The notes below the pieces were generated by a model. That model was given only the letters and a program-made list of their open reading frames with translations. It made no database searches and had not been told where the DNA came from. DNA of 61,148 bases from Syntrophomonadaceae bacterium (lineage in GTDB: Bacteria > Bacillota > Dethiobacteria > DTU022), in the NCBI GenBank assembly GCA_007119965.1, contig SKOR01000016.1, positions 1-61,148 of the forward strand, given 5' to 3'. The translations under genes were made by a program, and so were the position numbers. Shown piece after piece: positions 333 to 49,340 of the stretch. Numbering within the stretch: the stretch's first letter is position 1; each line of letters starts with the position of its first letter.

Positions 333-608
333 ATGTCCGAAAAAGAGAAAAGCCGGGTTACGGTATATATTATGGGTGAGGAATATATCCTTAAGAGTAC
401 TGCTTCGCCTGACAGGATGCACAGTGTGGGGCACTATGTAGATCGGTTGATGACCTCATTATCCGACAGCAATCAGCAGATGAGCAGGCAGAAAATTGCT
501 GTTCTGGCAGCGCTAAACCTGGCCGATGAACTGCTTAAATTAAAAGAAGAAAAACTGCAGTCGTCGGGAGAAGCGAACAACCGGGGTGACGATAATGAAC
601 TGGCTTGA
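333..608 (+). CDS. zapA: Cell division protein ZapA
   Basis: A 91-residue protein of ZapA type, which binds and bundles FtsZ filaments at the division ring. The N-terminal half has the family motif around VTVYIMGEEYILKS, and the C-terminal half is a charged helix expected to form the dimeric coiled coil. An upstream ATG at 312 is in frame, but the GGGGAGGG stretch at about 314-321 lies inside that extension and serves as SD for the ATG at 333, giving the normal family length. It overlaps the next gene by 14 bp, so the two are probably translationally coupled. Confidence 0.85.
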   Translation: MSEKEKSRVTVYIMGEEYILKSTASPDRMHSVGHYVDRLMTSLSDSNQQMSRQKIAVLAALNLADELLKLKEEKLQSSGEANNRGDDNELA

Positions 609-1164
609 TATACTTCTGATTGCGGTTTTCTTTCTGCACCTGATCAGCGGTTTTGCCCGCGGGCTGGTCAAACAGTTATTTGATATTTTTGGTTTTATCC
701 TGATTATTATCGTGTCTCTCTGGGGCAGCAGGATGTTTAGCTATATATTGGCCGATTATATCGAACTGGAAGATATCGTGCCGCACCATGAGGTTATTGA
801 AAACCTGGGGGTGGAGGTGGCTCTTGAGGCCGTTCCCCAGCTGATAGCGGGTGTGCTCACATTTCTGCTCCTCTTTTTATTTTTCAGCTTCATCTTCCGG
901 CTTTTTTCAGTCGGGTTCAGGTCAATTAACCGTATCCCTGTGATCGGTTTCTTTAACCGCGTTGGTGGGGGTTTCCTCGGCGCAGTGGTCGGGGCGATTT
1001 TTGTCTACATTATTATTGCCGCGGTTTCGCTGGTTCAGCTGCCGTTCTTTATTGATGCCATGGACAACTCTGAAGTGGTATTTATTGCCAATCACTACCT
1101 TACCCCTATCGCGAATGATCTAAGGGATCTACTTCTTAATTATTATATCAATCTGAACGGTTGA
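595..1164 (+). CDS. CvpA family integral membrane protein
   Basis: A 189-residue membrane protein that starts MNWLDILLIAVFFLHL and has four hydrophobic segments (roughly residues 4-24, 27-46, 78-103 and 115-145 from the ATG). The glycine-rich RVGGGFLGAVVGA stretch near residue 125 is typical of the CvpA/colicin V production family. The exact role of the family in Firmicutes is not settled; the common location beside zapA and mutS2 is conserved. A GTG at 586 is an alternative start. I prefer the ATG at 595 with GGGGTG upstream. The stop overlaps a possible TTG of the next gene. Confidence 0.8.
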   Translation: MNWLDILLIAVFFLHLISGFARGLVKQLFDIFGFILIIIVSLWGSRMFSYILADYIELEDIVPHHEVIENLGVEVALEAVPQLIAGVLTFLLLFLFFSFIFRLFSVGFRSINRIPVIGFFNRVGGGFLGAVVGAIFVYIIIAAVSLVQLPFFIDAMDNSEVVFIANHYLTPIANDLRDLLLNYYINLNG

Positions 1165-1265: not shown

Positions 1266-1856
1266 TTGTTTACTGATCGGTTTTATGGGGAATGTAATAC
1301 TGAAGAGGTGGCGCGGAAACTATTGGGGCACTATCTCTGCCGCCATTCGGCTGAAGGGCTGGTTTCAGGGATAATTGTAGAAACTGAAGCTTACTTAAGC
1401 GAAAATGATGATGCCTGCCATGCTTCCCGGGGAATAGGGAAGCGTAACGCGGTGATGTTCGGGCCGCCCGGAAAGGCATACGTATATTTAATATACGGCT
1501 GCTACTTTTGCTTTAACGTTGTGACCGGGCCGGAAGGTACAGGTGAAGCAGTGCTGGTCAGGGCGGTAGAGCCTGTGGAGGGGCGTTTTTTAATGCAGCG
1601 GCGCCGGGGCCAGCCAACTTCGCGCAGCAGCCTTGCTGACGGACCCGGAAAGCTGTGCCAGGCTTTTGCCATTGATCAATCGTTTAACGGGCACGATTTA
1701 CAGGAAAAACCTCTGTACCTGTCAGGAAACCGGGCAGTTAACGATGATATGGAGATCATTGCCACCCCGCGTATCGGGGTAACCCTGGCAGCAGAGAAAC
1801 CGCTGCGTTTTATAATCAGGGGCAATAAAAATTTATCGAGGAGAGAACCTACTTGA
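1266..1856 (+). CDS. DNA-3-methyladenine glycosylase (AAG/MPG family)
   Basis: This enzyme excises alkylated purines to start base-excision repair. Family signatures are clear: VETEAYLSENDDACHASRG holds the catalytic Glu (of VETEAY), followed by YVYLIYGCYFCFNVV and the ADGPGKLC segment. The frame is open back to a TTG at 1161 that overlaps the cvpA stop, but that start has no SD and would add an atypical 35-residue N-terminus. The TTG at 1266 has AAGGAA 8-9 nt upstream and gives 196 residues, the usual family size. Its end overlaps mutS2 by 4 bp. The function is secure; the start is moderately so. Confidence 0.85.
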   Translation: MFTDRFYGECNTEEVARKLLGHYLCRHSAEGLVSGIIVETEAYLSENDDACHASRGIGKRNAVMFGPPGKAYVYLIYGCYFCFNVVTGPEGTGEAVLVRAVEPVEGRFLMQRRRGQPTSRSSLADGPGKLCQAFAIDQSFNGHDLQEKPLYLSGNRAVNDDMEIIATPRIGVTLAAEKPLRFIIRGNKNLSRREPT

Positions 1857-4243
1857 CTGAAGTGATTACAGCACGGGAAATTAAAGTGCTTGAATATGAC
1901 AAAATACGCCAGAGTCTGGCTGACCTGACTGTAAGTCCCATGGGCCGTCATCTGGCTGAGCAGCTTGCGCCCCTGTCAGATCTTAATGCAGTCGGCAGGC
2001 GGTTAAAAGAAACCGGCGAAGGGCGCCTGCTATGCTCCAAAAATGCATTTGCCCCGGCAGGCGTGGATGATATTGACCCACAGCTGTCGAGAGCAGCCAA
2101 GCAGGCATCGCTTTCAGCGGCCGAACTGGCAGTTGTAATGTCCTTTATTAAAGCTGCCCGCCGCTGGGTGCTATTTTTTAAAGACAGCGACCAGCGAGAG
2201 TTTTACCCGCTGCTTGCAGAACTGGTTTCCGGAATCAGCCCCTGTCCCGAAATGAATGCCGCCCTGGAAAGGTCGATTGATCCTGAAGGCAATGTCCTCG
2301 ACAGCGCTTCAACGACCCTGACCGCCCTGCGCCGTAAAAAGCTGGCTTTGCAGAATAAAATCAGGGATAAACTTGATGAGTATCTGCGCAGTTCAAAATA
2401 CAGGCGCTATATCCAGGAGGCGCTGGTTACTATCCGCAACGGTCGCTACGTTTTGCCAGTCAAGCAGGAGTACAGGCAAAATATACAGGGAGTGGTTCAT
2501 GATCAGTCATCCAGCGGGGCAACATTATTTATTGAACCGCTCCCCGTGGTGCAGATGCAAAACGAGGTTACTGCCCTTCAGCGCCAGGAAGAGCAGGAAA
2601 TAGAGCGGATCCTTTATCAGTTGAGCGGGCAGGTAGCTGCCGAAAGCGAAGCCCTGGCCCAAAACAGGTCTTTGTATGCCGAGCTAGACTTTATAACTGC
2701 CCGCGGACGCTTAAGCCTGTCAACAGGAAGCAGGGAACCACAGTTGTTCCCGGGTGGCAGTGATGCCGGCATCTATTTTGACAACGCCTATCACCCCTTG
2801 CTGCCAGGCGAGAAAGTTCCGCTTTCTGTAGACCTCGATGAACAGGTGAAGACACTGGTGGTGACAGGCCCCAATACCGGCGGTAAGACTGTTGCCCTGA
2901 AAACAATCGGCTTGTTGACAGTAATGGCCCAGAGCGGGCTGCATATACCTGCCGGTAAAGATACCAGGATATCGGTTTTTGAAAAAGTGAGGGCTGATAT
3001 CGGTGATGAGCAGAGTATCGCTCAGTCTTTGAGTACATTTTCGGGGCATATGAAGAATATTATTGAAATAATTGAAGATGCCGCCCCTCGTGTGCTGGTT
3101 CTTTTTGATGAACTGGGGGCGGGAACAGACCCGTCAGAAGGATCTGCCCTGGCAATGGCCATCCTCGGTGAACTGACGGCAAAGGGTGCGCTAACCGTGG
3201 CGACAACCCATATCAATGAACTGAAACTTTTTGCACAGGTTGAGGATAAAATGCAGAATGCAGCAATGGAGTTTGACCCCGACACGCTGACGCCGACTTA
3301 CCGGCTTTTACAGGGCGTACCCGGCCAGAGCAATGCTTTTTACATTGCAGGGCAGCTGGGATTACCCGGGCATATGCTGGAAAAGGCGAAGAGCTTTGTG
3401 CACCGCTCGCATGACCAGGTAGAGTCGGTTATCGCCAGCCTGGTTGAAGACCAGCAGCGCTTTTACAGGGACAGCCGCCAGGCAGAGATTGAGCGAAGCC
3501 GGGCTGAGGTGCTGATGGAAGAACTGGAAAAAGACCGCGACCTGCTACATGCCAGACGTGAAGATATCCTGCGCGAAGCCCGGGAAGAGGCAAGGCAGAT
3601 GATCAGGCGGGCTAAAAGCACCACGGACCAAATTATCAAGGAAATGCGTGCCCTGAAAAATGCCGGTGGTGAAAAACACCTGGCCAGTGCAGAGCAGGCC
3701 CGCCGGGAATTAAGCCTTTTGCGCCGCGATACCGAAGCAGGTGAACAGGCAGAAGAAAATGAGCAGTATGGGCCGGCCGGGGAAGATCTGGCTGAAGGGC
3801 AGGCTGTATATATCCCCAGCTTAAAGCAAAAAGGGGAAGTTATATCATTTTCCTCCGAAGAAGCGTTGGTCCAGGTTGGGTCGATGAGGGTGAACCTGCC
3901 CCTTCAGGAGCTGCGCCTGGAACGGGATAAACAAGCAGCGGAAAAGAAAAAGCGTGAAGGATCAGCCGGTGGTTACACTGTGCACAAAGACGCGTCCATA
4001 AGCAGTTCGATCGACCTGCGGGGGCTTAATCTCGACGAGGCCCGCCCTTTGGTCGATAAATTGCTTGATAACGCTCTCTGGGCCGGGTTGAACCGGGTGG
4101 ATTTAATCCACGGCAAGGGAACAGGCAAGCTGAAGCAGGGTCTGCGAGACTACCTGAAAGGTCACCCCCTGGTCGGCAGCTTTCGCGGCGGCGGTTCAGC
4201 CGAAGGCGGCGAAGGGGTAACCGTGGTTGAGCTTAAATCTTAA
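1853..4243 (+). CDS. mutS2: MutS2 endonuclease, DNA recombination suppressor / ribosome rescue factor
   Basis: A 796-residue MutS2 of normal length. It has the MutS-like core and ATPase with Walker A GPNTGGKT at residues 339-346 and a Walker B region VLVLFDELGAGTD near 415-427. A long coiled coil (about 520-620) follows, then a C-terminal Smr nuclease domain with HGKGTG at 753-758. It lacks the mismatch-recognition N-terminal domain of MutS. Family members act on branched DNA and, in Bacillus, split collided ribosomes. The TTG start has GAGGAGAG upstream and overlaps the glycosylase stop. Confidence 0.93.
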   Translation: MTEVITAREIKVLEYDKIRQSLADLTVSPMGRHLAEQLAPLSDLNAVGRRLKETGEGRLLCSKNAFAPAGVDDIDPQLSRAAKQASLSAAELAVVMSFIKAARRWVLFFKDSDQREFYPLLAELVSGISPCPEMNAALERSIDPEGNVLDSASTTLTALRRKKLALQNKIRDKLDEYLRSSKYRRYIQEALVTIRNGRYVLPVKQEYRQNIQGVVHDQSSSGATLFIEPLPVVQMQNEVTALQRQEEQEIERILYQLSGQVAAESEALAQNRSLYAELDFITARGRLSLSTGSREPQLFPGGSDAGIYFDNAYHPLLPGEKVPLSVDLDEQVKTLVVTGPNTGGKTVALKTIGLLTVMAQSGLHIPAGKDTRISVFEKVRADIGDEQSIAQSLSTFSGHMKNIIEIIEDAAPRVLVLFDELGAGTDPSEGSALAMAILGELTAKGALTVATTHINELKLFAQVEDKMQNAAMEFDPDTLTPTYRLLQGVPGQSNAFYIAGQLGLPGHMLEKAKSFVHRSHDQVESVIASLVEDQQRFYRDSRQAEIERSRAEVLMEELEKDRDLLHARREDILREAREEARQMIRRAKSTTDQIIKEMRALKNAGGEKHLASAEQARRELSLLRRDTEAGEQAEENEQYGPAGEDLAEGQAVYIPSLKQKGEVISFSSEEALVQVGSMRVNLPLQELRLERDKQAAEKKKREGSAGGYTVHKDASISSSIDLRGLNLDEARPLVDKLLDNALWAGLNRVDLIHGKGTGKLKQGLRDYLKGHPLVGSFRGGGSAEGGEGVTVVELKS

Positions 4244-14041: not shown

Positions 14042-14111
14042 CGCTGCAGCCCGAAGTTACCTGGTTATACAAGGCGCAGGAAGTTATTATTGTTTAAATT
14101 CTGCCCGGCGA

Positions 14112-14149
14112 ACCTGCAGATCCGAATCCCTTCGGAGATTTAAGCAGGT
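14112..14149 (-). repeat. Intergenic structured repeat, copy A (reverse orientation)
   Basis: Outer arms ACCTGC (14112-14117) and GCAGGT (14144-14149), inner arms TCCGAA and TTCGGA with a 4-nt loop. Read on the minus strand it carries the 15-nt core TCCGAAGGGATTCGG shared with the copies at 25.3 and 35.2 kb. It fills the gap between fabH and fabD. Confidence 0.6.
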
Positions 14150-14194
14150 GCTGTTAAATGGCCACAATGATAATCTGCATGGGAGTTGATCCTG

Positions 14195-23760: not shown

Positions 23761-23784
23761 CGTCCGGTATCCGGTTTACAGGTT

Positions 23785-23868
23785 GTATCTGCTTATGTCT
23801 GCAAAGAGATCCGGCTTTTCGGCTGCGCTTACAGCTGCCGGAGACCTGCAGGTTAGCTGAGCAGGTAC
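23785..23868 (+). repeat. Intergenic structured repeat, copy B
   Basis: Arms GTATCTGCTT (23785-23794) and GAGCAGGTAC (23859-23868) pair over ten positions with two G-T wobbles. Inside lie CCGGC/GCCGG (23811-23815/23837-23841) and ACCTGC/GCAGGT (23844-23849/23861-23866). A core-like TGCAAAGAGATCCGG sits at 23800-23814. It occupies the ylxM-ffh gap; 19 nt (23846-23864) are identical to bases at 49318-49336. Confidence 0.65.
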
Positions 23869-23905
23869 TATAAATTTAAAATTAACTTTATGGAGTTGGA
23901 CTTTA

Positions 23906-25294: not shown

Positions 25295-25373
25295 GTAACT
25301 GTTCTCGCTTCCAAAGGGCTCCGGATCTTAGCTTACTGCTGCCGGAGACCTGCGGGTTGTGCTGAGCAGGTAC
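25295..25373 (+). repeat. Intergenic structured repeat, copy C
   Basis: Closing arms GTAACTGTTC (25295-25304) and GAGCAGGTAC (25364-25373), core TCCAAAGGGCTCCGG (25310-25324), inner arms CTCCGG/CCGGAG (25319-25324/25342-25347) and ACCTGC/GCAGGT (25348-25353/25366-25371). It fills the ffh-rpsP gap and closely resembles copy B in its 3' half. Confidence 0.65.
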
Positions 25374-35147: not shown

Positions 35148-35164
35148 ATAAAAGAGCAGGTAAT

Positions 35165-35222
35165 GTATCTGCTCACGCCTCCAAAGGGACCCGGCAATGC
35201 CGGCAGTTTACTGAACAGATAC
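35165..35222 (+). repeat. Intergenic structured repeat, copy E
   Basis: Arms GTATCTG (35165-35171) and CAGATAC (35216-35222), core TCCAAAGGGACCCGG (35180-35194), inner hairpin CCGGC-AAT-GCCGG (35191-35203). It lies in the rubredoxin 3' region. A GAGCAG at 35154-35159 could pair instead with CTGCTC at 35169-35174. Confidence 0.65.
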
Positions 35223-35253
35223 CGGATAATTACTTTGCAGTATATTTATGGTT

Positions 35254-46256: not shown

Positions 46257-46281
46257 AGGCCGGTAACAATATTATATTATT

Positions 46282-46324
46282 AAATAAGAGGCGGGCCTCG
46301 TTTTATGCGGCCCGCCTCTTATTT
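46282..46324 (+). terminator. Strong terminator after codY
   Basis: AAATAAGAGGCGGGCC (46282-46297) and GGCCCGCCTCTTATTT (46309-46324) form a perfect 16-bp stem ending in a T-rich arm. It closes the xerC-hslVU-codY unit. Confidence 0.9.
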
Positions 46325-46433
46325 GCAAAAAAAATGATATTTTTACGAGATCAATAAAGGATTTTATCTGGGCTGTGAGAAATAATAACTCTTATTCATA
46401 AAGTCATTATAATATATTTTCAGGAGGTAAGAG

Positions 46434-48490: not shown

Positions 48491-49309
48491 ATGCCGGCCA
48501 GCAAAACGCCAGACAGTGCAGGTCTGCAAAACAGCCTGGACAGGTTTATTGACAATGATCGCGGCAATAAACTACCGAATGGTGAGCAGATTTTCAACCA
48601 CCCTTTAATTGGTTTTGCTTCTGCTGAAGATCCGATCTTCGGGGAGTTTAGAAATGAAGCTGTGATTGGGCCGCTGTTCCGTCCTCCCTGCAGCTGGTTT
48701 TCTGAAGCTGTTACGGTTATCTCTTACTTTTTGCCGTTCAGCGAATATATCCGCCGCTCAAACTACGATAACCTGCAGACTTCCCAGGAATGGCTGCACG
48801 GGCGGTTTCTCGGTGAAAAATTTAATCAGGCAGTAAGCCGTTTTCTGGTCAGTGAGCTCGAAAACAGTGGCGGAAAAGCAGTTGTCCCGGCCCTCGAGCC
48901 GGAATATTGTGCCGACTACCAGGCTTTCAGCAGCAACTGGTCAGAAAGGCATATTGCCTATGCCGCAGGACTTGGGTCGTTTGGCCTGAGCAGGGGCTTG
49001 ATTACAGAAAAAGGGCTCGCCGGACGTTTTGGCAGCATTATTACCGATTTGCGCTTTAAGGCTTCGCCCCGCAAGGCCGGAAACCCTTTTCAAAACTGCC
49101 CTTTCTTTGCAGATAAAAGTTGTGGGGTCTGTATTGACCGCTGCCCCTCGGGAGCGATTCAGGCACACGGTAAAGATAAATCTGCCTGCAACCGGTATAC
49201 CCGCATCGAAGATCATCTCAGGGAGATGCGCCTCAGGTATGGCTACGAACACAGCGTTTGCGGCAAATGCCAGGTAAATGTGCCGTGTGAAGATTGCATC
49301 CCCGGTTAA
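48491..49309 (+). CDS. QueG-related 4Fe-4S double-cluster protein
   Basis: A 272-residue protein with the core of epoxyqueuosine reductase-like proteins: AAGLGSFGLSRGLITEKGLAGRFGSIITDL followed by a ferredoxin-like module, CPFFADKSCGVCIDRCPSGAI, and a second Cys group CGKCQVNVPCEDC at the end. True QueG is about 380 residues and has HEAT-like repeats and a cobalamin site; these are absent or reduced here, so a reductase or corrinoid-activation role is possible but unproven. GGAAGGGGG precedes the ATG. A bacterioferritin gene follows. Confidence 0.7.
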   Translation: MPASKTPDSAGLQNSLDRFIDNDRGNKLPNGEQIFNHPLIGFASAEDPIFGEFRNEAVIGPLFRPPCSWFSEAVTVISYFLPFSEYIRRSNYDNLQTSQEWLHGRFLGEKFNQAVSRFLVSELENSGGKAVVPALEPEYCADYQAFSSNWSERHIAYAAGLGSFGLSRGLITEKGLAGRFGSIITDLRFKASPRKAGNPFQNCPFFADKSCGVCIDRCPSGAIQAHGKDKSACNRYTRIEDHLREMRLRYGYEHSVCGKCQVNVPCEDCIPG

Positions 49310-49311
49310 GC

Positions 49312-49340
49312 GGAGAACTGCAGGTTAGCTGAGCAGATCC
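49312..49340 (+). repeat. Intergenic structured repeat, partial copy D
   Basis: Only the 3' hairpin of the element is left: CTGC (49318-49321) and GCAG (49333-49336) around an 11-nt loop. The 19 nt at 49318-49336 are identical to copy B at 23846-23864. It sits directly after the QueG-like stop codon. Confidence 0.6.

Follow-up and report, generated by a model that had tools for sequence, protein, structure and literature searches.

A short intergenic repeat of a Syntrophomonadaceae genome is very probably a new species-restricted MITE family

Introduction

Prokaryotic MITEs, the defining features of which have been reviewed (PMC10969869), include the RUP element of Streptococcus pneumoniae (PMC3049150), and the repeat family described here resembles RUP in being short and gene-less, in carrying terminal inverted repeats and a target-site duplication, and in occurring as many intergenic copies within one species. 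It differs from RUP in that the duplication is 8 bp and no partner IS was found here, and no sequence relationship between the two is established. A second comparator is the BOX element of S. pneumoniae (PMC3049150), which likewise consists of modular size variants with common ends, terminal repeats and target duplications, but which is built of repeated boxB modules, whereas the variants here seem to derive from a foldback palindrome by loss of internal sequence; again, no sequence relation is established. The GTAG/CGTC-tagged REPs are also extragenic palindromes at high copy number and are associated with RAYT transposases (PMC3733652), though the element here is longer, has GTAY ends and is flanked by 8-bp target duplications. 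Prokaryotic MITEs are typically AT-rich (PMC10969869), and the present family departs from this in being GC-rich (about 54%, above the genome); the sites in which it lies are AT-rich. ERIC and Correia (CREE/NEMIS) elements are likewise palindromic intergenic repeats that lie in transcription units, where hairpins in the transcript are possible, though for the element here there is no evidence of an RNase or promoter function. Both ERIC and Correia differ from it in their ends and their target duplication.

Results

The window analysed, 61,148 nt of DNA, is one whole contig (C66) of a draft genome of 2.34 Mb in 120 contigs, and the five loci that the first-pass annotation had described in it are all present. 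Copy B (23785..23868, plus strand), a mid-length form of 84 nt in the ylxM-ffh gap, is the best own-genome match of our covariance model (E 1.4e-20), and its arms GTATCTGCTT/GAGCAGGTAC form the ten pairs described, two of them wobbles. Copy C (25295..25373, plus strand), also mid-length at 79 nt, lies in the neighboring ffh-rpsP gap (E 7.9e-19), and copy D (35165..35222, plus strand) is a 58-nt short form that follows the rubredoxin gene (E 9.3e-9). For copy A the assignment to the minus strand was correct, while the covariance model extends the locus from 14112-14149 to 14097..14151, a short form of 55 nt (E 4.7e-8) that has, by Pfam, a 3-oxoacyl-ACP synthase III gene on one side and an acyl transferase gene on the other. 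Copy E (49311..49340, plus strand; BLAST E 1.4e-5) is a right-half fragment only, the left end of which was looked for at this locus and not found; it starts 2 bases past the stop codon of the ORF at 48491-49309, and a ferritin-like gene follows downstream. The 19-nt stretch CTGCAGGTTAGCTGAGCAG is, as noted at first pass, exactly identical at 23846-23864 and 49318-49336. Elsewhere in the window, at 46271-46335 between ORFs, an inverted repeat of 27 nt, A/T-rich at its outer ends, encloses a loop of 11 nt and is probably a terminator.

A search of the whole genome, proposed with the first description, found many more copies, as had been predicted. Used alone as a BLAST query, copy B matched about 40 further places, with single-sequence E-values that reach 5e-14 to 8e-12 elsewhere in the genome, and a covariance model built from 16 copies gave 67 matches to E ~0.01 in the 2.34 Mb (89 to E = 1), so that the repeats are not due to chance. 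Two of the 67 are both ends of one long copy, and the copy number in the genome is about 65. Contig C55 starts inside a mid-form copy (positions 1-54, L002), so the draft assembly may be interrupted at some copies and may undercount them. The placement in intergenic gaps claimed for the window holds there for all loci and extends to the genome, where 66 of the 67 matches overlap no gene called by our simple home-made gene caller, though 82% of the examined sequence is coding. Just downstream of two copies on contig C21 (21698-21779 and 22415-22481) are a T-box leader (L019, C21:20942-23981, positions 374-666, minus strand; 89 bits, just below the cut-off) and a Guanidine-I riboswitch (same locus, positions 1783-1911, plus strand; 63.2 bits).

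All forms have in common the ends GTAYCTGCTCA...TGAGCAGRTAC, which are imperfect terminal inverted repeats of ~11 bp with the consensus GTATCTGCTCA / TGAGCAGATAC over 54 copies, and they do not have the inner hairpins in common. The architecture that had been called the same at the window loci is therefore the same in its ends and differs inside, where several forms can be told apart. There is a short form of ~55 nt (GTATCTGCTCACGTCTCCAAAGGGATCCGGATCTGCAGGTTAGCTGAGCAGGTAC), a variant of ~61 nt with a different right end (GGCAGCTGTAAGCGAAGCAGNTNC), a mid form of ~75-100 nt that includes copies B and C, and long forms of 100 to ~300 nt that carry GGCAGCTGTAAGCGAAGCAGTTCC in both halves in inverted orientation and are thus foldback elements with long subterminal inverted repeats. 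At ~50-300 nt, and with no gene, the family falls below the MITE limit of about 500 bp. Its elements have a GC content of 54.3%, compared with 49.5% for the window and 36.7% for the flanks, so the insertion sites are AT-rich. Within the ends, the CTG core at positions 5-7 on both sides is 92-100% conserved (about 96%) and the other arm positions about 50-93%; the conservation of the core exceeds that of a simulation of uniform decay with detection bias (about 0.85), and CTG is therefore probably a point of transposase contact.

The 54 complete copies, with ends taken untuned from the model, show a clear signature of insertion in their flanks. The 8-mers on the two sides agree at 244 of 432 positions, compared with 148±9 when partners are shuffled (z 10.96), while each of the flank lengths 2-7 and 9-12 gives a z below 3. 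The 8-bp signal is found separately in the short form (z 6.9), the 61-nt variant (z 5.1) and the mid/long forms (z 5.2), with TTTCGCAC/TTTCGCAC as a perfect pair and AACGAGAG/AACGAAAG as a further example. About half of the copies have no recognizable target duplication, which is expected for old or rearranged copies. In the window, copy D has a duplication that agrees at 6 of 8 positions (CAGGTAAT at 35157..35164 and CGGATAAT at 35223..35230), and taken singly those of copies B and C are weak: the putative duplication of copy B, TACAGGTT at 23777..23784 and TATAAATT at 23869..23876, is identical at 5 of 8 positions, and the flanking 8-mers of copy C show no clear match above background. At the ylxM-ffh and ffh-rpsP gaps the insert is absent in all six same-genus genomes compared (ffh 77-82% identical), in which the ends of the neighboring genes and the ribosome-binding sites still align, the gaps being too diverged for a base-by-base definition of the empty site.

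The DNA consensus, at E <= 1e-4, finds only the genome itself and has no match in the other 97 of the 98 genomes of the class, and the covariance model, at E <= 0.001, has no match in 38 of 39 relatives, one same-genus genome among the 39 giving a single weak model match. On these results the family is essentially species-restricted among the genomes examined. Exact-pattern scans of viral contigs found nothing, and those of GTDB genome contigs found nothing save one match in a Coriobacteriales MAG (L134), where the rest of the element is missing and the match is about at chance level. The single model match, in the same-genus genome G006, is a copy-like sequence (L108, C123:714-793, minus strand) with matching ends (ATATCTGCTCAG...CTGAGCAGGCAA) and a different interior, flanked, as judged by eye, by no 8-bp duplication; it is possibly a sister element family. 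With 8-bp target-site duplications, empty sites in relatives and restriction to one species, the small mobile repeat that had been offered as one of two readings at first pass is well borne out.

The other reading, a selected RNA or DNA structure, had been drawn from the wobble changes within the arms, which were taken to mean that pairing is kept. Across the 54 copies, 456 of 594 outer pairs are formed, compared with 457.6±4.7 when right arms are redealt among copies (z -0.33), and in the 16 aligned copies there are no two-sided (compensatory) changes and the covariation score is below the shuffled mean. The argument from pairing thus fails, since pairing equals the shuffled expectation and two-sided changes are missing, and selected pairing is left unsupported because the arms vary independently. 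The wobbles are what transitions give rise to when the two inverted repeats drift independently of each other.

Discussion

We conclude that the loci very probably form a new species-restricted family of non-autonomous MITEs, moved in trans by a transposase making 8-bp staggered cuts, and the family combines short gene-less elements, terminal inverted repeats, a target duplication of fixed length and empty sites. The ends would have been bound by a transposase encoded elsewhere, which would then have placed copies into 8-bp staggered cuts; its gene may since have been lost, may be absent from the draft or may belong to a family other than the four searched (see below). The long foldback forms (up to ~300 nt) may be the older progenitors, from which the short and mid forms would have been derived through internal deletions or rearrangements before spreading as elements themselves, and hairpins in transcripts would be a by-product of the inverted repeats. 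Target duplications of fixed length from staggered cuts are typical of DDE transposition and not of single-strand tyrosine transposition, so that the 8-bp cut suggests a DDE transposase. The ISL3, IS256, IS1595 and IS66 families duplicate 8 bp, and no member of these four was found in the draft assembly. An end-pattern search found no autonomous partner, and in the examined stretches there are no paired ends 250-3500 bp apart around a gene.

Small, intergenic, palindromic repeats in many copies per genome might also be REP/REPIN-type palindromes moved by a RAYT tyrosine transposase, though target duplications of a fixed 8-bp length speak against this, as do GTAY ends in place of the GTAG/CGTC tags of PMC3733652 and a length of 50-300 nt in place of 20-40, and we consider this origin extremely unlikely. 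It is only a little less improbable that the repeat is a selected structured RNA, a leader, riboswitch or attenuator, at many operons. Such an RNA would be consistent with the position of many copies a short way upstream of start codons, with the preference for the direction of transcription in co-directional gaps (33 sense and 16 antisense among the genome-wide copies, p 0.02), and with the folding of copies B and C beyond shuffled sequence (z -3.1 and -3.6; copy D is weak at -2.2). However, copies A and E fold no better than shuffled sequence (z -0.6 and -0.5), covariation is missing whether 54 or 16 copies are considered, six relatives lack the repeats in the orthologous operons, and 8-bp target duplications are present. 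Rfam has no match at the repeats at curated or permissive thresholds, in agreement with the initial remark that it was not recognized as a known riboswitch. The fold of B and C is what an inverted-repeat element is expected to give and is therefore no evidence for RNA function, and the structured-RNA reading is already contradicted by these observations. Derivation of the long form from a cobalamin riboswitch, which a superficial order of the motifs CTGTAAGCG, CCACTG and GGAGACCTGC in the alignment might bring to mind, is scarcely credible: the RF00174 model finds two true riboswitches only and no repeat copy, neither true riboswitch has sequence similarity to the repeat, and the idea is refuted at the sensitivity of that search. 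The two riboswitches of this genome, at C111:4462-4637 (L109, 127 bits) and C45:14703-14879 (L110, 123 bits), are clear ones.

The family could also be a MITE by origin of which some copies later took on a role as RNA elements of operons, such as RNase processing sites, and this we regard as improbable, if less so than the alternatives above. The sense excess in co-directional gaps, strongest in mid forms (14 sense vs 3 antisense), points in this direction, as do parallels such as the ERIC and Correia elements (PMC3049150). Against it, the excess is modest, was found as one of several splits after several classes had been examined and is missing from short forms (10 vs 11), and there is no pairing constraint. 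Either chance or selection against antisense copies may account for the excess, and nothing else hints at a secondary effect on expression. A fuller version of recruitment, in which a burst of foldback MITEs was followed by the keeping of sense hairpins in operons, ylxM-ffh-rpsP included, with the mid form as an RNA processing or attenuation element, seems to us slightly more doubtful still.

As a MITE, the family is new and its kind well known, and it is not a conserved RNA switch, which explains a conspicuous repeat without a new riboswitch. It provides a clean example of how one draft genome can be enough to recognize a small transposon, by way of its target duplications and empty sites. 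Its size variants suggest that a foldback element shrank step by step and kept the CTG core at either end. Where copies have inserted between genes for signal recognition and for ribosomal proteins, they offer a natural test of how essential operons tolerate hairpin insertions.
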